DNA of 64,000 nucleotides from Basidiobolus meristosporus CBS 931.73 (taxonomy: Eukaryota > Basidiobolomycota > Basidiobolomycetes > Basidiobolales > Basidiobolaceae). Numbering within the stretch: the first letter of the stretch is position 1; each line of letters begins with the position of its first letter. Both the position numbers and the translations under genes were made by a program. The notes beneath the pieces are model-generated. The model was not told the DNA's origin, searched no databases, and saw nothing but the letters and a program-made list of their open reading frames with translations. Where the stretch lies: contig MCFE01000045.1 in NCBI GenBank assembly GCA_002104905.1, forward strand, positions 1 through 64,000, given 5' to 3'. Positions 1 to 54,572 of the stretch are shown here, piece by piece.

Positions 1-627
1 GTGGACTGGCGGTTACCTCCTCATAGATGTTGATGGTTTTGTTTCCATCAACATCTATGTCTGGGGTAAAGTAGGCATCAACATTCTCGTCAAAACTGTT
101 GTTGGCAATGCATGGAAACGTAAAGTACTGTGGATAGGCAGATACGATACGCTCAACTAGACCAAGCGTCTTGAATGAGCCATGAGTTAGAATACGCCTC
201 TGTATCACCTTTATGAAATTAGCCAACCGTGGAAACTTACATCTAGATAGCTAGCTTCTGTAGGGCCAACATTACCCACTCTATTCAGTGGGATTTCAAA
301 GAACTTGTCGTATTGGCTGAGGAGTCCCGCGCTGGTAGAGGATATATTTATCAGTACTTGAAAGCTGCACGTACTTCCAGTTCATTCTGTATTCGATACT
401 ACGCTCGGTTTCGATATTAACTAAACGAACAGAAATGATCAGTAAGCTCTCGTAGTGCTGCTACGAATGAAATGGCTCATACATGTGACTTTGTCTGGGA
501 AATAGTCGGTGGCTGGGTCATAATTCTCTACTGTGAATGATGGATCTACGATGTTCGAGGTGAGTACCTCACAAGAGACAGCAGTAAGGCCGAGGAAAGT
601 AAGAGTGCAAATGCTGAAGCAACGCAT
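1..627 (-). pseudogene. Secreted TroA/BtuF-like binding protein, copy 1 (partial, frameshifted)
   Basis: This is the left-most copy of the three-exon array gene and runs off the window at base 1. Exon 1 (627-483) encodes a signal peptide starting MRCFSICTLTFLGL, followed by the family N-terminus (TSNIVDPS, YDPATDYFPDKV). Intron 1 is 482-421 (gtatga donor). Exon 2 is 420-241, intron 2 is 240-170, and exon 3 starts at 169. Compared with copy 3, exon 2 lacks 14 bp at about 320, between TPQP and the QY residues. This shifts the frame and brings a stop a few codons later. The downstream residues (ASYLD, then GLVERIVS) are still readable in the original frame, so the lesion is probably recent. An upstream in-frame ATG at 660 is less likely because it puts 11 polar residues before the signal peptide. 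Confidence 0.75.
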
Positions 628-660
628 GTGTATTGATGTTGGATGTTTCGTGATGCACAC

Positions 661-1397
661 TTAAATAATATCTGGCCATTGTACATTCGAACACATTGGC
701 TGATCATCCAAAAATATGGACAAATAGGGCACTAACTATTGTGATCAAATTACTTACACAAGTAGCAAGATATCATCTGGCCATTTACACATTGGAACAC
801 ATTAGTTGATCCACCGGAAACATCCCACTAATTAGGATAGATTCCGTTGATGATGTGATGAAACAAGTTAGATACGTTTCTTTACGAGCCAATTGGGGCT
901 ACAAATCTTGCAAGCACCATTCGTGGATGTCAAATAACCATCTATGGAAAATCAATTCACTGCACCGAGGAACAACTTCCAAAAAGCTGACAGTTAATGA
1001 GATAGATTGGATGAATATCATAGTCATTGCCTTGGGTGAAAACGATTTGTGGTATAGCTTACAGCCTTCATCTAGATAAACGTCTACTTGCATTTCTGAA
1101 CTTATATGTACACTAGCTGTGGCCCTCTGCGACTACTGGGGCTTTTGCTGATATTTATAACGACTCTGGCTCTTTATACCTCAGGAAAGATTACGTACAA
1201 GCCTACCCGTTAGACTTATTTTACTCCCCTCAACTCAAATCATAGTATACCTCAGCTTAGAAGAAAAGCTCTGATAATATGCCTTCCGGTATGACATATG
1301 TGCCATCTCATTAATCCTTCCCCGCTAACTAAGCATCAAGAGGTGCTCCCATCCCAACATAAAGCCTCTTGGTAGATACGGCTGAACCCTAGCAAGT
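661..1397. other. Spacer of the repeat unit, no gene seen
   Basis: This stretch lies upstream of binding-protein copy 1. It resembles the spacers at 3331, 7266 and 8236; for example, the phrase with gaacacattggctgatc recurs. The opposing small ORFs here have no recognisable features and I do not support them as genes. Confidence 0.6.
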
Positions 1398-1650
1398 ACA
1401 TAATCCGAGAACTAGCAATCCCATTCACACTCTCAATGGTAACCATGACAATGGGTGCAAAATTACATTTCACCATTGGTCCACCTCCTCTCAGCAACAT
1501 TGCTATTAGGTTGACATTCACCGAATCACTCAGACCAGCACAAACGCTATGGATAGGTTACTAAGTGAAATCATGATTACTAGGCTCGAGGACGTTTTGG
1601 GAGATACGGCTGGTACTACAACTGGGACTACCTGTTTGATAAATAAATGA
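1398..1650 (+). pseudogene. Relic of the small secreted partner gene (unit 1)
   Basis: On the plus strand, frames here encode a signal-peptide-like start (RELAIPFTLSMVTMTMGAKL) and then TESLRPAQ. These align with the better copy at 4284 (SQLASPFPLLLATLVMGAQL and SESLSPAQ). The 3' end (TGTTCLINK then stop) matches the TGTADFINK end of that copy. The middle of the gene is missing and the frame is interrupted, so this is a decayed copy. It converges on binding-protein copy 2 at 1859. Confidence 0.5.
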
Positions 1651-1858
1651 ATCAGTAATTTCATATCGCTGTGATACTTGTCCCCAACACGCACACACTA
1701 ATCTAGCTCAGAACTGTGCATAATGACAAGACTTGAATCCAGATCGTGAAATCAATGAGATCGCCATAATGTTACGATATAAAATTATTTATGAGATTGC
1801 CTTCGATTATAACCGGTTACCTACAGTAATAGTTGCTATATTGGTGATGTGTAATGCA

Positions 1859-3297
1859 CTAGCCCAAATAGGCAGCTACAACAGAAGCCAACCCGAAGTA
1901 AACAAGAGCTGAGCTGGGACTGAAAAGGCTAACCCCATCGTTGGTATCAGTCTTGATCTTGGCGTCACACTTGTATGCCACATTTGCAAGTGACGCCTTA
2001 GGATCGATACAAGTGCCTTGCTGCGTACCGTTCAGCTTCTCACTATCGAAAAGGTTACGCATCCAGTGGAAAGTGTAGTTACTCTTGAAGCCAGGGTGGA
2101 CCATATTCACTGTGTCTTGCAGTGCAGCATCAGCCATCACAACGGCATTGAAGAACCAATCGGCATCGCCACTCTTGGTTTGGGTTTTGTCTACGCGGTA
2201 TACTGCCTTGTTGCTGATGAACTTGTATTGTGTGTCAGCCACAGAAAGGTTGTACAGGTGCAGTACCTCATCAACCCTAGGATAGGTAATGTTCAGGTGA
2301 ATGAAACTTGACATATCTACTAAGATGTCTGCATCCTTGATGACTTCTAGGAATTCATTCAATGGATTCCCCAAAGCTGAAATACCATTGTTTTCCTCAA
2401 ACTCTATTATTGATTGTGCGCCACTATCCCGCATCAGATAGTGTAGGTAGTTTGGAGTGTAGAGAACGTATGATACTCCTGAGGTTAAATAATCGGTTAT
2501 ATAGACCCAAGCAATCTTTGGCGTTGTCTTAGCCGTCATCGACTGTACCTCGCTCTTGACGCAGTTATAGTTGCCCTCAATGTCCTGTGTGATCTTGTTG
2601 GCGGTCTTCTCCAGGTTAAAGAAAACTGAATAAGTCCTGAGCAAATCCGACCTCGTGAGTGGCCTGGACATCGTCAACTCATTGATGTTGATGGTATCGT
2701 TCCTATCAGCATTTACACCTGGGGCAAAGTAGGCTCCAACATTTGCACTTGAACTGTTGTTGGCTATACACGGGGATGTAAAGTATTGTGGTTCGACAGA
2801 TACGATACGTTCACCTAGGCCAAGCATCTAGAATAAGCATATGTCAGAAATTGCTACCAAGTCGATGTTATCAAATGAGCCATCAATGGTAACTCACATC
2901 TAAAAAGCTAGCCGCAGTCGAATTTGCAATGCTCACTCGATTCACGGGATTTCAAAGAACTTGTCATACTTGCTGACACGTTCCGGCTGAGGAGTCCCAC
3001 GCTGGTAGAGGATGTACCTGTTAGTCTGTGAAAGCTGCACATACTTCCAATTCATTCTGTATTCGATACGGCTCTCTGTTTCATTATTGACTAAGCGAAC
3101 GGAATGCATTAGTAAGCCATCTTAGTGTGAATACAAATGAAGTGGCTCGTACATGTGACTTTGTCTGGGAAATAGTCGGTGGCTGGGTCATAGCTCCCTA
3201 TCTTGGCTGAGGGATCTACGATGTTCGAGGTGAGTACCTCACAAGAGACAGCCGTAAGGCCAAGAAAAGTAAGAGTGCAAATGCTGAAGCAACGCAT
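1859..3297 (-). pseudogene. Secreted TroA/BtuF-like binding protein, copy 2 (one-base frameshift)
   Basis: There are three exons: 3297-3153 (signal peptide, MRCFSICTLTFLGL), 3090-2898 and 2827-1859, with introns of 62 and 70 bp. Without damage the product would be about 435 residues. The fold is inferred from several motifs. LGLGERIVSVEP sits where bacterial BtuF/FepB-type proteins have a GLGDRIVG motif. PKIAWVYI and NEFLEVIKDADILV match the central helix and second lobe of that class. The C-terminus is a hydrophobic tail (ALVYFGLASVVAAYLG) suited to GPI anchoring. Exon 2 is one base shorter than in copy 3 (a missing g near 2945, within the EIPLNR codons). This creates an immediate stop at EIP. 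Exon 3 is fully open. A sequencing error at this one base cannot be excluded; if it is an error, this is the only full-length copy with the tail. Confidence 0.75.
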
Positions 3298-3330
3298 GTG
3301 TATTGATGTTGGATGTTTTGTGCTGCACAT

Positions 3331-3754
3331 TTAAATAATAACTGGCCATTGTACAATCGAATACCTTGGCTGCTTATCCAGAGCCATCGCGCAAAGTAGG
3401 ATAGATCACACCAACTATTGTGCTCAAGTTAGTTACACAAGATCATTTACCACGAGGCATGGAACGCTTTGTATGTAACAATGTTGCTTCCATTCCTTAT
3501 CAGTGATGTTGTAGCAATTACATCACTATCACTGGTGAATACCAAACAATCTCAATATGGTAGATTGGTGCTTGGCATCGCTTTTCCAAATAATGGGTAA
3601 TTGGTTGGTCAGATTAAACAATATTCCAGTGTATAGTCACAGACAAAATATCCTGTGGAGACAGTATATTTGACCACCATTTTTGGTTCTACTCTACTGT
3701 TCACTTGCCGACAATTACCATTTCAAGTTCTTTATATCCAATTGTACTGATAGT
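3331..3754. other. Repeat-unit spacer
   Basis: This is the upstream region of copy 2. It is homologous in patches to the sequence at 7380-7500 and 8340-8520 (for example ccttatcagtg and atatggtagat). I see no gene or clear promoter element in it. Confidence 0.5.
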
Positions 3755-4000
3755 ATGCGTCGGCAATCTGATAATGTACAGGCGATGAGTGAGCAAATTC
3801 AAATCATTCATCATACCCTAAATGTAGAGGAAACTGAGTGCACCTACTGTGATGTTGTATTTATAAAAATTCAGGAAGAGAACTGTAGTTTGTGTAAATC
3901 CCCTTTTCGTTTCACATGGCTGCTGAAAAGAATGCAGTCATATCAACTGAATTCAACTGGGTGCCAAGAACTTCCCTATATTCGGCTTCGTGATATATAA
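3755..4000 (+). CDS. Small hypothetical protein with two CxxC pairs
   Basis: This is an 81-codon plus-strand ORF beginning MRRQSDNVQAMSEQ. It contains ECTYC followed 13 residues later by CSLCK, a CxxC-x13-CxxC arrangement compatible with a small zinc ribbon or treble clef. The frame is open further upstream, but this is the first ATG. The neighbours are decayed array genes, and the spacing suggests it belongs to the repeated unit, although I could not find an intact counterpart in the other units. It has no signal peptide. I do not recognise the family, and it could be a chance ORF or an exon of a decayed gene. Confidence 0.3.
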   Translation: MRRQSDNVQAMSEQIQIIHHTLNVEETECTYCDVVFIKIQEENCSLCKSPFRFTWLLKRMQSYQLNSTGCQELPYIRLRDI

Positions 4001-4283
4001 GCTGTGTATAACAAATATCTGAATCCCTAGTCTGATCATATGCTCATCAAAAAGACAGGATCGTGTGATAAAACGCTGGTATATTGAATAGAAAACAACG
4101 AATTCATCGGAATACCGTCACTCGTCTTTACACCAGAGAATTGCCTGATGCAGATTAGCTCGCTAGGGATCATATACCGTTTTCATTAAACTGACTAGGC
4201 TTACCAAATCATATGATATATTCTAGTGCTATTACAAAAGTTTGTTCTGCTTTAAGCTAATGCCTCAGAACTCGAACTGGAAT

Positions 4284-4790
4284 ATGATCAGCCAACTAGC
4301 AAGCCCATTCCCTCTTCTACTAGCCACACTGGTCATGGGCGCTCAGCTGCAGTCTACCGCTGGCCCAGTCTCCTTCAGAAAGGTGGCCCTTCAGCGAGTC
4401 CCTTAGCCCAGCACAGAATCGTAATGATGGATATACCATCCGGGAGTTCAAGTCAAACAAGAAGGAAGACGCATCAAGGATCATGAGCCTTATTCTCCAG
4501 CAGATGACGAACAGCATGCAAAAGAAGGAGTATACCCCACTCTCGAACATGCTTGACATAGATGAGGCGAAGACTGGTACCGCCTCCGATCCGAAGGATC
4601 CCACTCTAGGCAGCAAAGGTGGAGATGAAGGTGAGGGTATTTCTGAGATGAACCCCGAGGAAGCTGAGCTTTGGGGCAATTATGGTCGCTGGAGACGTGA
4701 ATACTGGGAGATATGGTGGGTGTAGTCGGTGGGGAGGCAGAAGATATGGCGGGTGCTATGACTGGGACTGCTGATTTCATAAATAAATGA
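4284..4790 (+). pseudogene. Small secreted partner protein, best-preserved copy
   Basis: The plus-strand gene begins MISQLASPFPLLLATLVMG, a convincing signal peptide, then AQLQSTAGPVSF. An in-frame stop lies at 4404. The conserved body continues in the +1 frame: SESLSPAQNRNDGYTIREF, then QQMTNSMQKKEYTPLSNMLD and a highly acidic stretch (PEEAELWGNYGRWRREYWE). A further shift is needed to reach the shared terminal TGTADFINK. Copies at 1398, 5355 and 8528 preserve the same blocks in the same order, which is the evidence that this was a real gene. It converges tail to tail on the binding-protein copy on its right. I do not know the family. Unrecognised introns could explain part of the frame change. 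Confidence 0.5.
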
Positions 4791-5354
4791 ACCAGTCATT
4801 TCACTACACACTTGTGATGTTCCTTTCATCATGCTGGCAGTGCGGCATCCATACATCCACACATATCTATCTCGGATCAAAGAACAAAGACGATTCTCGA
4901 AATGAAATCATGAAATGTTGTTAGATTACCTTTGACATATAGGTTAGATACAGTAATAGCCTGTACAGAGGCTGAGTTTGTATTGCAAAGCCAAGACCAT
5001 CACTGGTATTTATGCATCCAGTGGAAAATAGAATCACCTCGACGCCGCAGCTCCCACAACTAATCTTACTGTTATTGTGAGTACGCCACGCTATTTGAAT
5101 GTCAGGCTTAGTACTGGCGGTAATTGTCTGGTGTATTACTTCTCCATATATTCGTCGCAGCAACAATACAATCCAAAGCTTTTTCGCAGGTCATGGTCTA
5201 TCAGATGCGTGAACAACACTGAGATATGAATATTCAATCCATCAAACCCCCGTCAATCTTTGCTACAGACCCAATTATATTCCAAATATCTCTACTTGAT
5301 TAAGGGTAGCTCATTGCCTTTGTCATGAGGGCCAATGCCGTGGAACCTGACCTG
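4791..5354. other. Repeat-unit spacer
   Basis: The left part matches sequence after the other partner-gene copies, for instance at 1650-1790 and 8900-9000. The remainder, around 4921-5166, contains scraps such as tgcatccagtggaaa that also occur inside the binding-protein exon 3. That suggests deleted remains of another copy. No intact gene is present. Confidence 0.4.
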
Positions 5355-5682
5355 CGATAAGATCAGCCAACTAGCAATCCCACTCAACCTCCTTGGCCAC
5401 GGGTATTTCACTGCACTCCATAACTGACCAAGACACTCGAAAAGATATAGGCACCGAACCTGTATCTACCGATTCATTTAGTCCTACACAAAACCCCGAG
5501 GACGGATATATCCTCCGGGAGTCCCAGTTAAGCAAGATATGTCGAGGATCATGAACCTTACTTACCATCAAATGACTCAAAGCATGCAGAAGGAATTTAT
5601 AAATAGGAGAACTGATGATATCTCTGCTTCCAAGTATCCAACCATATACCACAAAAGCGACTCGAAGAATCCCAAGTAAACT
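5355..5682 (+). pseudogene. Relic of the small secreted partner gene (unit 2b)
   Basis: The plus strand encodes ISQLAIPLNLLGH, then DSFSPTQNPEDGYILRES, then MTQSMQKEF. All three align in order with the copy at 4284 (SQLASPFPLLLA, SESLSPAQNRNDGYTIRE, MTNSMQKKEY). Stops separate the blocks, so the gene is dead. It sits immediately upstream of, and convergent with, binding-protein copy 3. Confidence 0.5.
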
Positions 5683-5888
5683 GAATCATGAAGTTATTTG
5701 TTACTTTCTAAATAATTCGGCATTATGGTTGATCGTTTGATGGATACAGTGAGGTTAGATACAGTAGCAGGCACTATGGTGAATACATAAATTACACTAT
5801 TTCAGACAGGTAGCTGCAAGAGAAGCCAGCCCGAAGTAAGCAACAGTCGAACATAGATTAAAAAACCAATCCCATTGTTAGTAATTAT

Positions 5889-7232
5889 CTAGATCCTGGC
5901 ATCACATTTGTAGGCCACGTTTGCAAGTGGCGCCTTGGGATCAATACAAGTGCTGTGCTTCGGACCATCGAGCTTCTCATCGTCGAAAAGGCTACGCATC
6001 CAGTGGAAAGTGTAGTTACTCTTGAAGTCATGGTGAGCCATATTCACTGTGTCTTGCAGAGCAGCATCAGCCATCACAACTGCATTGAAGTACCAATCGA
6101 CATCACCGCCCTTGGTTTGTATTCTATCTACACGGTATACTGCCTTGTTGCTGATGAACTTATATTGTGTGTCAGCCACGGACAGGTTGTATAGTTGCAA
6201 TACCTCATCAACCGTAGGGTAGGTAATGTTCTGGTGAATGAAATCTGATATTTCCACTACAATGTCTGCGTCCTTGATGACATCTAGGAACTCATTCAAA
6301 TTTTTATATCCGTGAGCCAAAGCGCCGTTATCTTCGTCAAACTCTATTAATTGTGCGCCACTATCCTGCATCAGAGAGCCCAAGTAGCTCGTTGTGGAGT
6401 AAACGTAGTACACATCCGAGCCGTGATATTTGTAATAATCGGATCTATAGATCCAAGCAATCTTTGGCATTGTCTTGGCCTTCATCGACCCTACCTCGCT
6501 CTTAACGCAGTTATAGTTGTCCTCGATCTCCCGTGTGATCTTATTGGCGGTCTTCTCCAGGTTGAAGAAGACAGAATAAATTTTGAGTAAATCTGATCTC
6601 ACAAGTGGACTGTACCACGGATCCTCAGTAATGTGGATGGTTTTGTTCCCAACGATATATCTGTCTGGGGAAAAAAGTGCATCAACGTTTACCCCTGAAT
6701 TACTATTGGCAATGCACGGGGATGTGAGGTATTGTGGTTCGGCAGACACGATACGCTCACCTAGGCCTAGCATCTATGATAACCATGTGTCAGGAAATGC
6801 TTCTAAATCATTCGTATTAGTAAGAACTCACATCAAGATAGCTAACCGCAGTCGAGTTCACAACTTCCACTCGATTCAGCGGGATTTCAAAGAACTCGTC
6901 GTATTGGCTGATTCGCTCTGGTTGAGGAGTCCCACGCTGGTAGAGGATATACTTGTGAATACTTGAAAGCTGCACATACTTCCAGTTCATTCTGTATTCG
7001 ATACGGCTCTTTGTTGCATTGTTAACTAAATGGACGGAATGCATTAGTAGGTTATCTCAGTGTGAATACAAATGACGTGACTTGTACATGTGACTTTGTC
7101 TGGGAAATAGTCGGTGGCTGGGTCGTAATTCTCCACCCTGAAGGATGGATCTACGATGTTCGAGGTGAGTACCTCACAAGAGACAGCAGTAAGGCCGAGG
7201 AAAGTAAGAGTGCAAATGCTGAAGCAACGCAT
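5889..7232 (-). CDS. Secreted TroA/BtuF-like substrate-binding protein, copy 3 (open, tail lost)
   Basis: This is the only copy whose three exons stay open throughout: 7232-7088, 7025-6832 and 6773-5889. The introns are 62 and 58 bp. The product is about 407 residues. Residues 1-19 are a signal peptide. Exon 2 supplies YILYQRGTPQPERISQYDEF and EIPLNRVEVV, and exon 3 starts LGLGERIVSAEP, as at the beginning of class III (helical-backbone) bacterial substrate-binding proteins. The second lobe is seen in PKIAWIYRSDY and in KNLNEFLDVIKDADIVVEI. A stop after KCDARI removes the last 23 or so codons, which in copies 2 and 4 form a hydrophobic GPI-type tail. Copy 3 is therefore predicted to be soluble and secreted. 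In bacteria such proteins feed ABC importers, which fungi lack, so the role is unknown. Metal or siderophore capture outside the cell is a guess from the fold. Confidence 0.65.
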
Positions 7233-7265
7233 GTGTATTGATGTTGGATGCTTCGTGCTGCACAT

Positions 7266-7704
7266 TTAAATGCAATCTGATCATTGTACATTCGAACACA
7301 TTGGCTGATCATTGTACATTCGAACACATTGGCTGATCATCCAGAACTATCGCAGAAATTAGGATAGATTGCACCAACTGTTGCGCCCCAATTAGTTACA
7401 CGAGATCATTTATCGCGAGGAAAAGAACACTCATATGTAACACTGTTGCTTCCACTCCCAACTTCATGATATCTCAGCCATATAGAGTGTCAGACCTGGC
7501 ATTGACGGTAAAAATACTTAGACTTGTAAGGTAGAAGGTATAGCGGGCTTCATAAACAAATGAACCAACAATTATTTCATAGCTATACATCCACATATAT
7601 CTATGCCGGACCAGTGAGCAAAGACAATGCTTGAGGAGAAGTTCGAAATTGTAGGGATGAACTACAATGATATTGCATTCAACTATTTATTAGATAACTT
7701 GAGA
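7266..7704. other. Repeat-unit spacer with a partner-gene 3' scrap
   Basis: The left part contains a short direct duplication: cattgtacattcgaacac and the following gctgatcat appear twice at 7283-7340. At about 7540-7575 the text cttcataaacaaatgaacca matches the 3' end of the partner genes at 4770 and 1635. So a nearly completely deleted partner copy lies here. No gene is intact. Confidence 0.5.
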
Positions 7705-8235
7705 CTAAAATAGCTTGATGCTGTGATAGACAGTATAGTGAAGACGCGTAATACCATAGCCCAGATAGATGGCTACAATAGAAGCTGAAAACGAGTAAAC
7801 AAGAGCCGACCTTGAGTTGAAAAAGCCAACTCCATCATTAGTATCACACTTATAAACCAAGAAGCTGAAGTGGTACCATATTGCATTGAGAAGGCCGAGG
7901 AGTGCCGCGCTGATAAAAGATTCAAGTCTAATAGAAAAGCTGTAGATACTTCCAGCTCTTTTGGTAATAAATACGATTCTCCATTCGGGCGTCAACTAAA
8001 TGAATGGAATGGATCAGTAAGCTCACTTAGCGTTGCTACGAATTAAGTGACTCATACATGTGACTTTGTCTGGGAAATTGTTGGAGGCTGAGTCGTAAAG
8101 CTCTATCTTGAATGCTGGATCTACAATGTTGGAGGTGAGTTTCTTACAAGAAACGGTAGTAAGGCCGAGGAAAGGCAGAATGTAGGTGCATAAGCACCGT
8201 ATGTGTACTGATGTTGTATGTAGTATGTTGAACAC
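7705..8235 (-). pseudogene. Gutted binding-protein copy: leader and tail without the binding domain
   Basis: On the minus strand, 8235-8060 encodes the exon 1 region (YILPFLGLTTVSC, LTSNIVDPAF, FPDKVT) up to a gtatgagt donor identical in place to the other copies. The usual acceptor is at about 7996. A short piece of exon 2 follows (KSWKYLQL), which then jumps straight to the C-terminal tail (LVYKCDTNDGVGFF, SASIVAIYLG). About 370 codons of the ligand-binding domain are missing. The exon 2 piece and the tail are in different frames, and the usual start codon reads ATA. It is a pseudogene. Confidence 0.65.
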
Positions 8236-8527
8236 TTACATAACATCATAGCCTTCAAACACATTAGCTGATCCACAAGAAACGTCGGACAATTTAGACA
8301 TCAACTGCTGTGATCAAATGAGCTACATGAGTTTCTTTAACTATAGGCTAAGATCATATGCAAGTGACACTGTTGTTTGTTTTCCTTATCAGTGGTGTTA
8401 CGATCTCCAAATCAATACTACTGTTGGATAACAATCTCTATATGGTAGATCCGTACTTGACATTACTCTCTCAAATGAAAGAAATTTTGCTGGTCAGATA
8501 GAATGATATTATAGTGTGTAGTCGGAT
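8236..8527. other. Repeat-unit spacer
   Basis: This is patchily homologous to 3331-3640, with shared words around the atatggtagat and ttgctggtcagat motifs. No gene was found. Confidence 0.4.
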
Positions 8528-8902
8528 GCACCGTCCAGGAGCTCAAGTCAAGCAAGAAGGAAGACGCGTAACGAACCATGAGCCTTATTTACCACCAAAC
8601 GACAAGCAGCATGTACCAGAAGGAGTATTCTCCACTCTCAAACATACTTGACATTTAAAAGACAAGAGCTCATTCAGTCCTCGATACAGGGATACCACCA
8701 TCGACGACAAAAGTTGAGCGGAGGATAAGGGCAATTTTAAGGAAACATTACTAAGTGGGGAAGATACGGTCGCTGGAGACATGGTTACTAGGTTTGAGGA
8801 CGCCACGGGATATATACCAACTATGCTCGGTGGGAAGGTCGAGGGTATGGCAGGTTCAAAGACTGCTAGTTTGATAAGTGAACAAGCCAGTAATTCGGTA
8901 TA
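8528..8902 (+). pseudogene. Relic of the small secreted partner gene (unit 4)
   Basis: The plus strand carries a block corresponding to REFKSNKKED (gagctcaagtcaagcaagaa), then MSLIYHQTTSSMYQKEYSPL and SNILDI followed by a stop. A later block (VTRFEDATGYIPTMLGGK, then KTASLISEQ) aligns with the end of the other copies. The signal-peptide part is absent. It converges on binding-protein copy 4 about 200 bp away, the same arrangement as units 1 and 2. Confidence 0.45.
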
Positions 8903-9106
8903 ATCACTGTGATACTCTTTCGAACATGCTAGCAATACACTCACACAACACCAACTTAGAGTTGTGAATAATGACAAGACTTGAAGCCAGATCATGAAAT
9001 CAATGAGATCGACATAATGTTATGACTTACAATTATTTATTAGACTGCCTTCGATTATAATAGGTTACTGACAGTAATGGTAGACGTATTGATGATGTGT
9101 AATGCA

Positions 9107-10089
9107 CTAGCCCAAATAGGCAGCTACAACAGAAGCCAACCCGAAGTAAACAAGAGCTGAGCTTGGACTGAAAAAGCTGACCCCATCGTTAGTATCAGTC
9201 TTGATCTTGGCATCACACTTGTAGGCTACATTTGCGAGTGGTGCCTTGGGATCAGTACAAGTGCTTTGCTGCGTGCCATTAAGCTTTTCATCATCGAAGA
9301 GGTTACGCATCCAGTGGAAAGTGTAGTTACTCTTGAAGCCAGGGTGGACCATATTCACTGTGTCCTGCAGTGCAGCATCAGCCATCACAACGGCATTGAA
9401 GAACCAATCGGCATCGCCACTCTTGGTTTGGGTTCTGTCTACGCGGTATACTGCCTTGTTGCTGATGAACTTGTATTGTGTGTCAGCCACAGACAAGTTG
9501 TACAGTTGCAGTACCTCATCAACGGTAGGGTAGGTGATATTTTGGTAAATGAAACTTGACATCTCCACTATGATGTCTGCATCCTTGATGACTTCAAGGA
9601 ACTCATTTAATGAATATCCGAATGCTGTAATACTATAATTTTCCTCGAATTCCATCATTAGTTGAGCGCCACTATCCTTCGTCAAAGAGTATAAGTAGTT
9701 CGGAGTGTAGTAGACGTAGGATATGTTCGAGGAGAAGGTGTAGGCATCGGTTGTGTAGACCCAAGCAATCTTTGGCGTTGTCTTAGCCGTCATCGATTTT
9801 ACCTCGCTCTTGACGCAGTTGTAGTTGCCTTCAATGTCCTGTGTGATCTTGTTGGCAGTCTTTTCCAGGTTGAAGAAGACCGAATAAACTTTGAGTAGAT
9901 CTGATCTCATAACTGGAGTGTACCACGTATACTCAACAAGGTTGATGGTTTTGTTTCCATCGGCATATATGGATGGGGAAAAGAGTGCATCAACATTTGC
10001 ACTCGAACTGTTGTTGGCAATGCACGGGGATGTAAAGGATTGATTGCACATACTTCCAGTTCATTCTGTATTCGATACGACTCTCAGTT
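9107..10089 (-). pseudogene. Secreted TroA/BtuF-like binding protein, copy 4 (5' truncated)
   Basis: Exon 3 is open and ends with the hydrophobic tail (ALVYFGLASVVAAYLG). It is very close to copy 2 through the second half and the 3' flank. The 5' part is lost: 10089-10052 is a scrap of exon 2 (RIEYRMNWKYVQ) fused out of frame to the TSPCIANNSS segment of exon 3. The remainder of exon 2, intron 2 and the GLGERIVS motif are deleted. Exon 1 and the signal peptide are absent. Beyond 10090 the sequence is unrelated and AT-rich, so the array ends at a rearrangement point. Confidence 0.75.
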
Positions 10090-11490
10090 TTTTGAGTTGC
10101 AGAGCTTGATAGTGGCTTGATCAATCACAATTCTTCATATCTAATCCAGAGAATTAAATATCACTGAATGTTCTCACCCACTGTGATAAGTGAGATACAT
10201 ATAACAAGTAGAAAGTACTACGTCATCTTCTGAGTGGCTCTTAGCTGTATACTGGCCATTTTTTGTTTAGTTGTATATTCCAATCAGGCTTGCAACCATT
10301 TGCTTCACATTTTTTGGCAGGTGGTAGAATCTCCTTGAGTTGATGTTGCTAAGGTTATATAATACTTTGTTGCACAGTTATGAGACTTAAACAGAGTGGT
10401 AGCACATCTAACAGCTTCATATTTAGCCCCTGGGACATTGATTTCAGTATCAAAACATTTGATATTACTATAGCATTCTTGCAATGGATTCTGTTGCACA
10501 TATCCATACTCCAGGTGGATATATATGTATTATATATCAATAGGATCCTTACAGTTGAAGGAGCTTGTTGCTGAGATCAAATTTGATTAATAGGTAGTCC
10601 AGAATGGCTGTTAACAGCTCCAGTATTTGCATTCTCAGCCTCATTTTGAGTGGCAACAGATTTTGGTAAAATCCTCCTCTGGCAATCATTGAATAATGAT
10701 CTATTTTTTTTGCAATTTAGGATTGTATCCTGTTCAAAGCTTGTCTAACAGTCAATTGTAGTCATATGAGTACATATAGTAATATATCTTGCAGTAGATC
10801 TGGACCCACAATTGCTGGAATTACGCAATTTTCTTCAGTAGTAGTAGAGATTTAGAAACTCTTAGCAGGCTTCTTTATATTTTAGCTATAGTAATTTTTA
10901 TAACTACTTTGCAAAATAAAGATTTCACCATAATGGCAACTCTTTCCTCCTCCCCCCCCCCTCTAAGGTTCTTGGCATCTACACCCTAGGCAATAACCCC
11001 CCCCTGCATTCTTGTAACCCACAATTGCAGGATAAAGAGAGGGGCTAATGGAGTTCTTCCACTTGACCTTTAGAATATGGATATTAGAACCACAAAAACA
11101 GAATTTTGCCTTCAGCCGTGTTAATACTATGAGCAATCAGCTACTTGCAAAAAGCAATGTTGAGCTACTACTTCCTAGAGACTGCCTTTAAAAACTGTGT
11201 ATTAGAGATCTTTAATGATTGGCTCTTGATTTCTGCGGATCAGACAGAAAATTCTAGTCTTATTAGTAATGATGATTGTTTCAACATTCGATTTTCTTGA
11301 TGGTTTAATAAAATATACAATTATGGAAGTAGCTGTGTTTGCTCATTGTTTGGATGATTTTCGAGGTTCTTGGCCTGCACAAACATTCATAGACATCATC
11401 AAATTTGGTTAGTCCCGTCTTTCTAATCTAATTAAATCCATTTTCATCCGCAGCACTCGCAAAGACCTCTTGGGCAAGTGGTTACACTGA
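10090..11490. other. AT-rich non-coding stretch with C homopolymers
   Basis: This segment contains C runs near 10950 and 11000, many short A/T runs and overlapping small ORFs on both strands. None of the ORFs has recognisable content. The composition is unlike the flanking dehydrogenase gene, and the segment begins exactly where the binding-protein array is broken. A decayed mobile element is possible, but I found no RT, integrase or terminal repeat. Confidence 0.4.
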
Positions 11491-27329: not shown

Positions 27330-28495
27330 TCAGGCCCAACGGCCGATCAGCGCCATGATCCCTGCCCCGGTCCATAGCGCAATGTAACAAGTGACCTTCA
27401 TTAGTTTGCTTTGCTTGATGAACTCTGGGCTGTTCTGAAACTCGACCGCTATCAGGTTCACAAAGGCCATGTAGATGAGAATGCCAGCACTGACGGCGTC
27501 GAAGATTCCGTTGACTAGTAGGGCGGTGGGGGAGTTTTCGTTGTAGCTACTGTGTATTCCCAGACCAATGGCTACTCCGATCGGAGTGATGACTGCGTAG
27601 AACATGGCTGTGATATAAGGGACCAATCGATTCGAGTACGTAAGCTCACCAATACGTGCCCCAAGTGCCAGCCCTTCGAAGAATTGGTGAAATACGATGG
27701 CACACAACAATGAATTGAACTCAGTGCCTGAAGTCACTCCGACTGAAATTCCAATCAACACGGAGTGCATGGAGATGCCAAATTCCAGTAAATACGTGGA
27801 GATTCTACGTTGTTGATCAGCATCTATCAGACCCCCATGGTGGCATCCACCATGGCCACTCTCGAGATTGTGTGTCTTCTCCAGGACGCCACTGGGCTCT
27901 CTCTCGACACTCAACGTGTCTTCACTGTTGGAGTCTACGGAGTCCGAGGTTTGCGCCTTGCCGAAATGCTGGCTAGCGGTAAACTCGATCAATTGAAGAA
28001 TCAGTGCGCCGAACATAGCAAACAGCCCGGCGTAGGCGGTGTAATTTTCATGGAAAGCCTCTGGAACACAAGGGTTGGTGAGCGCAAACAATGCACCAGG
28101 GAACATATGTATGAACCCTGTGGCCAGAATCACCCCTGTGCCGAAGTGCTTCCCAAGCGTTACAAAGTTGCGTCCCTTTGAAATATGTTTGAAGCGAGAT
28201 GCCAAGAGGGAGGAGAAGACCCCCAATGCACTGGCAATCAAGATAATGAATATGGCGGCAACATGCAAGGGCATGTTATAATTTCCTGCATCGCCTGCGC
28301 TGCAGCCATCCGATTCATGTTCATGCTCATGACTGGGACCTGTCGGGACATAAAAATCAGTAAAGGTGGGCTCCGAGCATGACGTAAGTGCACATTACCT
28401 GCATGTTTGGGTACGATGGTGACTTCTTGAGAAGATACAGGAGCGACGCTAAAGAAGATCAACGAAAGTATGGGCAGTAATGATGTTTTCGGCAT
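27330..28495 (-). CDS. ZIP-family zinc/iron transporter (Zrt1/Zrt2-like)
   Basis: Exon 1 (28495-28399) encodes a signal peptide (MPKTSLLPILSLIFFSVAPV). A 59-bp intron is followed by exon 2 (28339-27330), and the product is 368 residues. The extracellular start of exon 2 is rich in His/Glu/Cys (SHEHEHESDGCSAGDAGNY). The eight-helix ZIP core has FGTGVILATGFIHMFPGAL in TM2-3. The metal-binding helices are FGISMHSVLIGISVG (TM4) and FHQFFEGLALGARIGE (TM5, HxxxEG). The cytoplasmic loop between TM3 and TM4 carries a short histidine cluster (SGHGGCHHGG). This is the fungal plasma-membrane zinc-uptake architecture. No zinc-responsive element could be identified by eye. Confidence 0.93.
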
Positions 28496-47187: not shown

Positions 47188-49445
47188 CTACTGATCAATC
47201 TCAAGATCAGGGATTTCGGTTTGCTTATAGTTGGCAGAGAGGATGGGTCGGATGACGGACTCGAAGTAGGGCACTGGTTGCTGAGGGTTATTGGCCTTGA
47301 CGAGGTTGAAGTAGGCCTCGTAGATGTTTCCATCGTATCTGCCCAGAGGGGAGTTGATGATGTAATCGGTGTAGTTGAAGGAGTCGACCAGTGGGATGGC
47401 GTCCTTACGGATCACCGAGCACAGATGGTTGACTTGCTCACGAATGACCGAAAGCTGGGATGCGGTGAAGTACTCACAGCTGAGGAACTCCCCGGCATTT
47501 TGCTTGATGCTGTGGAGACCGTAGAGTAGGCAGAGGTTGGTCAGCACGGTACGAATGCTCTCAGGCGCTTGGCGTACGGCATCCGCGAAGCGATTGAAGA
47601 TGTAGCCATAGCTGTGCATACGGGCGGCATGCAGACGCTCAACTGCGCAGCTCTCCAAGGCGGCATCTTTACTGATTCCCTTGGCCTTGGCTGCCTCGTA
47701 AATGTCGGCCGAGATCTTGACTGCATTGGCAGCAACTACACTCCATGCCTCAGAGATGGTATCCAGGTTGGCGATGGATGCGACATCATCGCCTGGACAT
47801 TTCAAGGCGCTCAACTGTCCAGCGTTCTTGAGGTAGCTGAATCCTTTGGAGACATTCTTTCCTCGCTTGATATCAAGGTATGCGGTGATCAGGGAACGGC
47901 CGGTTTGAAGGGTCAGGATGGTGTTGTCCCCTTCCCAGGTGCATTGAATGGCGAAATCGGAATACATTGATGCCAATCCAGTGTATCCAGAGTACCCGTG
48001 GCCACCACACGCTTGGCGACACTGCTCAATGGCGCTCAGACAGTTCCATGTACAGAACGCCTTGAGTCCAGCGGTGGTAGCGTGGGTCTCCTTGAGGAGC
48101 TCGATGGTTTCAGAGAGATCTTGGCCCGGGCGGGCATTCTCTAACTGATCCATCAATTGGTTGTACAGCTTTTGGACCTCAGAGCTGGTGAAGTTCACGG
48201 CCACTGCCTCGGCCAACAGAGGCAGCAGTCGATTCTGGTGGATCACATAATCCAAGATCTTGGTCTCCGGCTGCTTAGGGTTGGAAGAGAACTGGCGACG
48301 GACTGCAGCATATCTCAGCGCAATGGTGAGGGCTTTCTTGGCGTAGTTTGCACTATCCCGGACCATGGAGACTCTGCCACCAATGAGCGCGCCGTAGGCA
48401 AGCTGAGCGAGTGGGGGCTGGATGACCTTACCAGTGCGGGTGACCTGTGCGTACTTCATCAACATGTTTTGTCGAGGAATGCGGACGTGTGTGAACTGGA
48501 TCCAACCGTTGTCAATACCATCTCGACCCATTTTCTTGCCAATATCTCCGATGTTGATGCCTGGCAGCAGGTTGAATGTTTTGGGATCGCGAAGAGGGAC
48601 TACGAATGGTTTGACACCGTAGTTCTTGCCCTTCACGATCAACTGAGCGAAGGCGGTTGTGTGAGTTGCTGTATGGGCCGCACCACCAATCCACCATTTG
48701 GTGGCGGTGACGGTGGGCGTATGAACGATGAACTCGTCGGTAGCTTCATCGAAAGTGGCGGTGGTCTCAAGTCCAGCCACATTAGATCCATGTCCGAGCT
48801 CGGTCATGGCAAAGCAGCCGGTAACTCCGTTCAAGGCCAGAGCCCCCCTCTTGACCCAATATTCATATTGGGCAGGGGTGGCTTGGCCCTGGATTGTGCT
48901 GAAGAATAGGCCAGTGTGGACACCAAGTCTGGTGTAAAAAGCGGGGTCAACCAATCCCATGAGAATCATTCGTTTGTGGAAGGACTCCTTGGATTCATTG
49001 GCCAAATAAGGAAGAACGTTTCGGAGTTTCAGCAATGTGCGCTCTCTCACTTCCGGAAGGGTCAAGTTGTAATGATCATCCATTCTCCATAGTGGGTCTC
49101 TTTCCAGTTGAAACATGAATTTCTCGGTCAGCTAATGGGTGAAAGCCGGAGTATTAGGCTTCGTTCATGGTACAGGAAACAACTGCTGGGACAAACCTTG
49201 GTCTCCTCTTCGCCACCGTCCAAATAGTAGGTTAGCTCGCGTATGGGGAAGGAGGGGTTCGCACGCTCCTCAGCGAGGCTTTCGGTAGGTCTAAAGTGAA
49301 TCCATTGGTTAGTACGAACACTCGATAGTACCCCTTGATTTGTGGCTTACTTAGGTGGTTGACTCTTATTTACAGTGGAGGTCTGCTTTTTAGGCTCCAA
49401 ATGGGCCTTGATAGAAGCAAGACGGGTATCGGTATTTGGAGTCAT
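47188..49445 (-). CDS. Peroxisomal acyl-CoA oxidase, copy 1
   Basis: The exons are 49445-49351, 49290-49197 and 49131-47188, with introns of 60 and 65 bp, and the product is 710 residues. It oxidises acyl-CoA to trans-2-enoyl-CoA with FAD and transfers electrons to oxygen, the first step of peroxisomal beta-oxidation. The N-terminal domain has FPIRELTYYLDGGEEET. The mid domain has CFAMTELGHGSNV and KWWIGGAAHTATHT. The FAD-binding region GRDGIDNGWIQFTHVRIP is present. The catalytic glutamate is in FAIQCTWEGDNTILTLQT (about residue 463), following the ACGGHGYS block. The C-terminus ends LEIDQ with no PTS1 tripeptide, as in yeast Pox proteins. The TATA run is at 49518-49528. An almost identical copy lies at 52308. 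Confidence 0.95.
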
Positions 49446-52307: not shown

Positions 52308-54572
52308 CTACTGATCAATCTCAAGATCAGGGATTTCGGTTTGCTTATAGTTGGCAGAGAGGATGGGTCGGATGACGGACTCGAAGTAGGGCACTGGTTG
52401 CTGAGGGTTATTGGCCTTGACGAGGTTGAAGTAGGCCTCGTAGATGTTTCCATCGTATCTGCCCAGAGGGGAGTTGATGATGTAATCGGTGTAGTTGAAG
52501 GAGTCGACCAGTGGGATGGCATCCTTGCGGATCACCGAGCACAGATGGTTGACTTGCTCACGAATGACCGAAAGCTGGGATGCGGTGAAGTACTCACAGC
52601 TGAGGAACTCCCCGGCATTTTGCTTGATGCTGTGGAGACCGTAGAGTAGGCAGAGGTTGGTCAGCACGGTACGAATGCTCTCAGGCGCTTGGCGTACGGC
52701 ATCCGCGAAGCGATTGAAGATGTAGCCATAGCTGTGCATACGGGCGGCATGCAGACGCTCAACTGCGCAGCTCTCCAAGGCGGCATCTTTGCTGATTCCC
52801 TTGGCCTTGGCTGCCTCGTAAATGTCGGCCGAGATCTTGACTGCATTGGCAGCAACTACACTCCATGCCTCAGAGATGGTATCCAGGTTGGCGATGGATG
52901 CGACATCATCGCCTGGACATTTCAAGGCGCTCAACTGTCCAGCGTTCTTGAGGTAGCTGAATCCTTTGGAGACGTTCTTTCCTCGCTTGATATCAAGGTA
53001 TGCGGTGATCAGGGAACGGCCGGTTTGAAGGGTCAGGATGGTGTTGTCCCCTTCCCAGGTGCATTGAATGGCGAAATCGGAATACATTGATGCCAATCCA
53101 GTGTATCCAGAGTACCCGTGACCACCACACGCTTGGCGACACTGCTCAATGGCGCTCAGACAGTTCCATGTACAGAACGCCTTGAGTCCAGCGGTGGTAG
53201 CGTGGGTCTCCTTGAGGAGCTCGATGGTTTCAGAGAGATCTTGGCCCGGGCGGGCATTCTCTAACTGATCCATCAATTGGTTGTACAGCTTTTGGACCTC
53301 AGAGCTGGTGAAGTTCACGGCCACTGCCTCGGCCAACAGAGGCAGCAGTCGATTCTGGTGGATCACATAATCCAAGATCTTGGTCTCCGGCTGCTTAGGG
53401 TTGGAGGAGAACTGGCGACGGACTGCAGCATATCTCAGCGCAATGGTGAGGGCTTTCTTGGCGAAATTGGCGCTGTCTCGGACCATGGAGACTCTGCCAC
53501 CAATGAGCGCACCGTAGGCAAGCTGGGCGAGTGGGGGCTGGATGACCTTACCAGTGCGGGTGACCTGTGCGTACTTCATCAACATGTTTTGTCGAGGAAT
53601 GCGAACGTGTGTGAACTGGATCCAACCGTTGTCAATACCATCTCGACCCATCTTCTTGCCAATATCCCCGATGTTGATGCCTGGCAGCAGGTTGAATGTT
53701 TTGGGATCGCGAAGAGGGACTACGAATGGTTTGACGCCGTAGTTCTTGCCCTTCACGATCAACTGAGCGAAGGCGGTTGTGTGAGTTGCTGTATGGGCCG
53801 CACCACCAATCCACCATTTGGTGGCGGTGACGGTGGGCGTATGAACGATGAACTCGTCGGTAGCTTCATCGAAAGTGGCGGTGGTCTCAAGTCCAGCCAC
53901 GTTAGATCCATGCCCGAGCTCGGTCATGGCAAAGCAGCCGGTAACTCCGTTCAAGGCCAGAGCCCCCCTCTTGACCCAGTATTCATATTGGGCGGGAGTG
54001 GCCTGCCCTTGGATGGTGCTGAAGAACAAGCTAATGTGAACGGCGAGCCTAGTATTAAAGGCGGGATCAACCAAACCCATCAAAACAAACCGCTTTTGGA
54101 AAGACTCCATCGACTCATTGGCCAAATAAGGAAGAACGTTTCGAAGTTTCAGCAATGTGCGTTCTCTCACTTCTGGAAGGGACAGGTTGTAGTGACCATC
54201 CATTCTCCATAGTGGGTCTCTTTCCAGTTGAAACATGAACTTCTCCATCAGCTAATGCCAGGTGGGAAGGGATTAGGCTTCGCTTATGGAACAAGTAAAG
54301 ATTAGTCTGGTGCTCGAACAAACCTTGGTCTCCTCCTCGCCGCCGTCCAAGTAGTAGGTTAATTCCCGCACTGGGAAGGAGGGATTGGCACGCTCAGCAG
54401 CGATGCTTTCGGTGGGTCTACAGAGAAGTCGTTGGTTAGCGCCAATACTCCCAAGTGTTCTTCCGCTGTTAGGTTACCTGGGTGGTTGCTGAGTGTTTAC
54501 ATTGGAGGTGTGCTTCTTGGGCCCGATGTGGGCCTTGATTGAGGCAAGACGGGCGTCGGTATTTGGGTTCAT
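52308..54572 (-). CDS. Peroxisomal acyl-CoA oxidase, copy 2
   Basis: The exons are 54572-54478, 54417-54324 and 54251-52308, with introns of 60 and 72 bp in the same positions and phases as copy 1. The product is 710 residues. Catalytic and FAD motifs are the same (CTWEGDNT, FAMTELGHGSNV). From roughly residue 150 onward the protein is almost identical to copy 1 (one visible change, NFAKK for NYAKK). The first 150 residues differ at many positions, for example HYNLSLPEVRE and NTRLAVHISLFF. There is no PTS1. A separate TATA run lies at 54627-54636, so regulation may differ between copies. Confidence 0.95.

Follow-up and report, generated by a model that had tools for sequence, protein, structure and literature searches.

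A partly decayed tandem array of secreted BtuF-like proteins in Basidiobolus meristosporus, a probable fungal branch of the CBA1 family of vitamin B12-capturing proteins

Five copies of a three-exon gene, four of them large and one gutted, lie on the minus strand within the first 10,090 bases of the stretch of Basidiobolus meristosporus DNA analysed here (the window, 64,000 nucleotides). Judging from sequence kinship and gene context, we consider it probable that the array proteins form a branch, in fungi, of CBA1, a eukaryotic family derived from BtuF-type class III proteins, and would capture B12 outside the cell. Phaeodactylum and Chlamydomonas no longer take up B12 once CBA1 (cobalamin acquisition protein 1) is lost, and homologues in fungi were reported in 2023 (PMC10828217); the Basidiobolus array is what is newly added here. 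B12 use in non-Dikarya fungi was described in 2021 (PMC8085122), no fungal B12 uptake receptor was found in the literature surveyed, part of it available in excerpt, and our literature search returned no work joining Basidiobolus with a periplasmic binding protein. The most useful point is that CBA1 appears to be tied by sequence to riboswitch-controlled bacterial B12 importers.

Results

The copies were placed by in-register direct repeats and open reading frames, which confirmed the tandem array of the preliminary description; all five copies are present, but only copy 3 is complete, copies 1, 2 and 4 being cut, frameshifted or truncated. Copy 1 (1-627; exon 1 627-483, exon 2 420-241, exon 3 from about 175) has lost its 3' part at the contig start and carries in exon 2 a small frame-breaking deletion relative to sister contigs. 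Copy 2 (1859-3297; exon 1 3297-3153, exon 2 3090-2898) is frameshifted by one base in exon 2; its exon 3 is open (2827-1859, 322 aa) and ends in a hydrophobic GPI-like tail. Copy 3 (5889-7232; exons 7232-7088, 7025-6832 and 6773-5889) encodes 407 aa with a CBA1/BtuF-like domain, and its two introns, both GT-AG and 62 and 58 bases long, bear out the earlier description of a spliced gene. Of the gutted copy (7700-8235) there survive a piece of exon 1 (8199-8053), scraps of exon 2 and a vestige of the tail, with the binding domain absent. In copy 4 (9107-10090), exon 3 (about 10045 to 9107) ends in a GPI-like tail; exon 1 is gone and exon 2 is reduced to a fragment (10045-10090), and the broken end of the copy adjoins a high-copy, LTR-like repeat (10091-10849). 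Thirty-nine further copies of this repeat, 83-85% identical, scored among 176 candidates, and pairs lie about 2965 bases apart on contigs C535 and C1295. A small co-amplified gene is present on the plus strand at 4256-4800, its frame broken between a signal-like start and the body, with other remnants at 1372-1660, 5331-5680 and 8524-8900.

The array is also found on sister contigs C34 and C792, at 92-99% identity per aligned piece and with exon-3 matches for five copies on each (one partial in C792), and is thus neither chance nor assembly stutter. P0001, a gene model that the database holds for this species (K493DRAFT_341291, with a UniRef name starting 'Periplasmi'), differs from copy 3 at 1 of 407 residues. 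P0001 lies on a contig of 61,688 bases, and C792 is likewise 61,688 bases long.

Six dispersed paralogue loci (C403, C173, C351, C448, C752 and C1072) were modelled with splice sites chosen by eye. The position of the second intron is common to all six, and the first intron of copy 3 and of four paralogues (C403, C173, C351 and C448) falls 10-12 codons ahead of a shared, conserved tyrosine; in C752 and C1072 it lies about 5 codons nearer that tyrosine. Copies 2 and 4, as first described, and paralogues C173, C448 and C403 have a hydrophobic C-terminal tail, called from hydrophobicity alone; copy 3 and C1072 lack one.

With one of five window copies complete, frameshift and truncation among the rest, a high-copy repeat at the edge and no tail on copy 3, it is conceivable, if somewhat unlikely, that the array in the window is for the most part a relic and that the dispersed paralogues are the working members, which would be compatible with B12 capture. 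Against this, exon-3 dN/dS among the window copies is 0.24-0.32 (from 7 of the 11 array exons, leaving out four that yielded just 5 codons), which argues for constraint through most of their divergence, and exon 3 of copy 3 encodes an identical protein on contigs C702 and C792. These ratios give no overall support to the earlier suggestion that selection for diversity drove local amplification.

The copy 3 product begins with a hydrophobic stretch that, from hydrophobicity alone, is a putative signal peptide, in keeping with the initial reading. Its AlphaFold model (pLDDT 85) contains a long backbone helix at residues 186-208 and matches class III substrate-binding proteins in Foldseek and VIA comparisons, as does the sequence in a profile search. 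The array product is therefore predicted to adopt the TroA/BtuF/FepB-like class III fold, as had been proposed from motifs. Neither BtuF nor IbpS is among the 50 VIA entries listed, an absence that is uninformative on either protein. At the Pfam PF01497 (Peripla_BP_2) cut-off of 27.5 bits, all five bacterial relatives tested pass, copy 2 exon 3 scores 16.6, and the other three queries and a search of the whole genome gave no match.

Among the matches listed, the nearest bacterial relatives are proteins of Chloroflexota and Cyanobacteria. A cobalamin riboswitch is present in 62 of the 80 best bacterial loci (a raw count, taken without a background set), and homology searches found a FecCD permease match in 72 and an ATPase match in 53, counting matches with E up to 1e-8 on either strand and anywhere within the fetched flanks; these counts supersede an earlier motif scan of the same loci (permeases 38/80, ATPases 2/80). 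By sequence, this is the layout expected of a B12 importer. A search with copy 3 only, which returned 7 proteins, had suggested a narrow transfer, a picture overturned by a search with the fungal alignment (301 proteins, 120 listed). The phylogeny that the preliminary description had called for covered 58 rows, hand-picked from the listed matches, from five gene models of B. meristosporus and from six retrieved loci; 12 rows are grouped as algae, five of them (P0104, P0111, P0121, P0130 and P0151) by likeness. A single branch separates the 22 bacterial rows from the 36 eukaryote rows, and recent transfer from gut bacteria is therefore unlikely.

The initial idea of metal, siderophore or zincophore scavenging is not supported, given the riboswitch loci of the bacterial kin and the full CBA1 signature of two diatom members; neither the kinship nor the gene context found here gave any sign of a metal or zincophore role. 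Our own siderophore hypothesis was dropped once cobalamin riboswitches had turned up around the bacterial genes. A specific form of it would make the proteins surface receptors for ferric siderophores, acting like diatom FBP1 with a ferric reductase, and the array a means of raising iron capture in the animal gut. The class III fold is common to both, iron-siderophore binders make up most of the nearest PDB matches, and the available text of two papers reports that FBP1 knockouts cannot grow on ferrioxamine-bound iron (PMC6876252), that siderophore activity occurs in B. meristosporus CBS 931.73 and that Basidiobolus siderophore synthetase domains belong to bacterial clades (PMC7466969). However, FBP1 ancestry reportedly lies with gram-positive hydroxamate receptors, whereas the bacterial kin of the array mostly sit in cobalamin-riboswitch loci of Chloroflexota and Cyanobacteria, and two diatom members hold the full CBA1 residue set. 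We regard this explanation as improbable.

CBA1 membership here rests on the 16 published signature residues, placed by hand on one diatom row of a MAFFT alignment of the same 58 rows, from which the docking glutamates were also counted. All 16 are present in two Cylindrotheca (diatom) rows, one being the placement row, and other named diatom rows hold 14 and 11. Basidiobolus members retain 12-14, copy 3 having 12, and bacterial rows retain 11-14, which means that CBA1 and its bacterial kin cannot be told apart by this count. Two of the four residues that reportedly lie near the B12 position, the two tryptophans, are conserved in copy 3. In the pocket motif W-F-E, all six Basidiobolus rows keep the tryptophan and have lost the glutamate, and none has the middle phenylalanine.

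These pocket changes, together with the heme proteins IsdE, HmuT and RhuT among the fold matches and the altered function suspected in plant CBA1 homologues (PMC10828217), would fit a Basidiobolus branch that kept a tetrapyrrole cleft and switched its ligand to heme, a degraded corrinoid or another gut porphyrin, with several copies specialised or drifting. Yet the genome keeps its B12 enzymes, the motif tryptophan is invariant, and we found no positive evidence favouring another ligand; such a switch seems to us hardly likely. Several points nonetheless count against B12, among them the lost pocket glutamate, the overlap of signature counts with bacterial rows and the lower counts of other diatom rows, a PDB profile ranking that places iron-siderophore and heme proteins above BtuF, the broken state of most window copies, the siderophore activity of the species and its B12-independent methionine synthase.

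In line with the premise that fungi lack such importers, a FecCD permease search gave no match in the B. meristosporus genome and was positive in 13 of 14 controls. Both permease-docking glutamates are found in 22/22 bacterial rows; among eukaryote rows, in a region where the alignment is uncertain, the N-lobe glutamate is present in 3/36 and the C-lobe glutamate in 10/36. Copy 3 has lost both, with a gap and N at these positions, subject to the same uncertainty; for many rows, checking the N-lobe glutamate with an anchored regex gave no information.

Discussion

Cobalamin is the best-supported ligand, favoured by a bacterial sister group residing largely in riboswitch loci and by the full CBA1 signature in two diatom members. 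The genome encodes a B12-dependent methionine synthase (MetH, in two places) and methylmalonyl-CoA mutase, and also a B12-independent methionine synthase, so that B12 is not obligatory. On the best reading, an old eukaryotic B12-binding family has multiplied in Basidiobolus into secreted proteins, some anchored and some free. We postulate that the array protein passes through the secretory pathway, to be either released or kept at the cell surface by a GPI-like tail, and that the cleft separating its two lobes would bind cobalamin. As no FecCD/BtuC permease was found, the loaded protein would pass its B12 on to a receptor, endocytic or at the surface; export from the lysosome (LMBD1-type) and CblC would then supply the two B12-dependent enzymes. 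Local duplication within the Basidiobolus lineage would have produced the array, of which the present haplotype appears to be decaying.

Like CBA1 of Phaeodactylum and Chlamydomonas (PMC10828217), the Basidiobolus proteins are apparently secretory, BtuF-like and two-lobed, share signature residues, and co-occur with B12-dependent methionine synthase. Unlike CBA1, they lack the W-F-E glutamate and occur in tandem copies, and they end in a GPI-like tail or none, whereas Chlamydomonas CBA1 has a predicted transmembrane helix. With bacterial BtuF-type proteins they share whole-length homology, an N-terminal YFPDK segment and the class III fold; the bacterial proteins differ in their docking glutamates and riboswitch loci, and the fungal ones in their introns, extra cysteines and C-terminal segment. 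Diatom FBP1, as described in the available text of PMC6876252, is likewise a eukaryotic cell-surface protein resembling bacterial class III receptors, and its partner is a reductase, not an ABC importer; its kin are reportedly gram-positive hydroxamate receptors and its ligand is hydroxamate, which by description sets it apart. Similarly, the Ibp iron/copper-binding proteins of fungi and oomycetes are, in the accessible part of PMC6813330, secreted, duplicated, substrate-binding-type proteins of bacterial origin, set apart by description as Venus fly-trap proteins prototypal of a novel substrate-binding class.

It is tempting to speculate that early-diverging fungi take gut-bacterial B12 with a multi-gene set of anchored (wall or membrane) and free CBA1 proteins, a relay replacing the ABC importer, and that the whole CBA1 family descends from a riboswitch-controlled BtuF of Chloroflexota or Cyanobacteria; we hold this wider proposal as rather more doubtful than probable. 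Algal work relied on knockouts and structural likeness to BtuF, and the riboswitch context of the bacterial kin adds sequence evidence for cobalamin binding by the family. If the array proteins are indeed CBA1, a B12 receptor would become open to direct testing in a fungus whose habitat, the animal gut, it shares with bacteria.

Array copies and paralogues

The genes for a putatively secreted class III (BtuF/CBA1-like) binding protein form a tandem array at positions 1-10090, minus strand, of contig C702 (MCFE01000045.1) in the 89-Mb, 1311-contig assembly of Basidiobolus meristosporus CBS 931.73. The array comprises five copies of a three-exon gene, four of them large and one gutted. Copy 3 is complete, encoding 407 amino acids from minus-strand exons at 7232-7088, 7025-6832 and 6773-5889. 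Copy 1 is truncated by the contig start, exon 2 of copy 2 carries a frameshift, and of the first two exons of copy 4 only a small part of exon 2 is left; the fifth copy is gutted. The array of this haplotype is breaking down, although single-base lesions may be assembly errors. Exon-3 dN/dS was 0.32 (copies 2-3), 0.24 (2-4) and 0.25 (3-4), with dS of 0.42-0.56, and the copies are old duplicates under constraint. These pairwise values, beyond whose reach single-site selection lies, give no sign of overall diversifying selection.

The array is also present on sister contigs C34 and C792 (92-99% identity by aligned piece), where it extends beyond the breakpoint of the window array. The existence of three closely similar versions of the locus suggests that there are over two haplotypes or that the segment was duplicated. 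Dispersed paralogues on C403, C173/C351, C448 and C752/C1072 share 34-43% identity in their best-matching exon pieces. The second intron position is common to all six modelled paralogue loci, and the first is conserved in four, being shifted by about five codons in C752 and C1072. A hydrophobic, GPI-like C-terminal tail is found in copies 2 and 4 and in paralogues C403, C173 and C448, and is absent from copy 3 and C1072.

Several other features were observed in the window. An LTR-like, high-copy repeat (10091-10849) adjoins the broken end of copy 4, starting at 10091; 39 further copies, 83-85% identical, were scored among 176 candidates, and on two contigs paired copies are spaced by about 2965 bases. 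A small gene (4256-4800, plus strand; remnants at 1372-1660, 5331-5680 and 8524-8900) is co-amplified with the array, its 13 genome matches being confined to C702, C34 and C792, and on C792 two long open forms of it (L117, L119) specify a protein that begins with a hydrophobic stretch and has a tail rich in Gly, Arg, Tyr and Trp. On the minus strand, two near-identical 647-aa ORFs (47188-49131 and 52308-54251) resemble acyl-CoA oxidases by eye, and another (27330-28394) a ZIP-family metal transporter.

Relatives and descent

The existing UniRef name of the copy 3 protein begins 'Periplasmi'. Searching with copy 3 alone returned 7 proteins, an alignment-based search 58, and a search with the fungal alignment 301. 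The matches listed (120 of these 301) include many Coemansia and other Kickxellomycotina, Glomeromycotina (Rhizophagus, Entrophospora), Gonapodya, an aphelid, Acrasis, Heterostelium, diatoms, a brown alga and cyanobacteria. Four relatives (P0111, P0117, P0121 and P0122, with P0121 from a marine protist transcriptome set) have the binding domain fused to a Hint domain (PF01079).

In an unrooted tree of 58 hand-picked rows, all 22 bacterial rows fall on one side of a single branch (support 100/99), and the six Basidiobolus rows, B. ranarum among them, form one group (100/100). The transcriptome protein P0113 groups beside the bacteria, and the order of the remaining eukaryote groups is unsure owing to long branches. 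Given this grouping, the gene appears to be long established in eukaryotes and to have multiplied in Basidiobolus, rather than to have been picked up recently in the gut.

Sayer and co-workers (PMC10828217) report that Phaeodactylum and Chlamydomonas cannot take up B12 without CBA1, and that this protein has a predicted structure resembling BtuF, 16 near-invariant residues, and homologues in fungi, already noted in 2023, and amoebozoa. We placed these residues on a diatom protein, P0115, and carried them through the alignment to other rows. P0115 has all 16, with within-block spacing as published and between-block spacing of 35, 36, 32 and 78 versus the published 40, 37, 38 and 105. The 12 algal rows score 11-16 (16 in P0104, P0115 and P0127, the last two being from one genus; 14 and 11 in the other named diatoms), Glomeromycotina 14-15, Basidiobolus 12-14, Kickxellomycotina 11-12 and bacteria 11-14. 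Because bacteria score high too, the count speaks for kinship more than for CBA1 identity. Tryptophan W394, kept in 27/36 eukaryote rows, 6/6 Basidiobolus, 0/6 Kickxellomycotina and 0/22 bacteria, is more telling, yet it is not a clean marker. In addition, the CBA1 motif W-F-E reads W-Y-F in copy 3. Two cysteines are eukaryote features (36/36 and 35/36 eukaryote rows).

Bacterial kin and their likely ligand

The best 80 of at least 568 confirmed bacterial loci belong, judged by record titles, to Chloroflexota and Cyanobacteria. By homology search, their neighbours include a FecCD permease (72/80), an ATPase (53/80), a TonB receptor (28/80) and DUF7676 (26/80), and Pfam backs the identity of sampled neighbour genes. 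One Oscillochloris locus has ChlI/ChlD/CobN-like genes as well. DUF7676, which is PF24724 in the two loci tested (L049, L055), lies mostly between TonB receptor and binding protein and is a candidate B12-uptake accessory protein.

With Rfam gathering thresholds, a cobalamin-clan riboswitch was detected in 62 of these 80 loci (10/11, 13/16, 11/13, 10/14, 9/11, 7/12 and 2/3 per batch), several negative loci having incomplete upstream sequence. In 61 of the 62 it is on the coding strand and upstream of the binding-protein gene; in L081 it is downstream of that gene. Since one genome carries only from a few to some tens of cobalamin riboswitches, the count would be far above the level expected from chance. 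On this evidence, the bacterial sister group probably binds cobalamin.

B12 use and proposed mechanism

No FecCD permease was found in the B. meristosporus genome by a search positive in 13 of 14 control genomes. The permease-docking glutamates, which we take to be FeuA E90/E221, were positioned by alignment and are both present in 22/22 bacterial rows. In eukaryote rows, where this part of the alignment is uncertain, glutamate occurs at the N-lobe position in 3/36 and at the C-lobe position in 10/36, and copy 3, with the same uncertainty, has it at neither.

The genome encodes B12-dependent methionine synthase (two places), methylmalonyl-CoA mutase (one place) and a B12-independent methionine synthase, the gene set of a facultative B12 user. 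A CblC-like match scored 25.6 bits alone and 32.2 with neighbours (cut-off 27), and genes of LMBR1, a broad family, are present. Orlowska and co-workers (PMC8085122) describe the use of B12 by non-Dikarya fungi.

A literature search for Basidiobolus and periplasmic binding proteins found no paper, and no study of fungal CBA1 was among the matches listed (titles and abstract starts) for CBA1, cobalamin acquisition and fungi. Within the reach of these searches, the novel findings are the expansion in Basidiobolus and the bacterial relatives under riboswitch control. From the computed fold, kinship and gene context, we infer that the protein is most likely secreted and either kept at the surface or released, that it would most likely bind B12 between its two lobes, and that it would then, most likely, pass the vitamin on to some uptake route that does not use an ABC importer.
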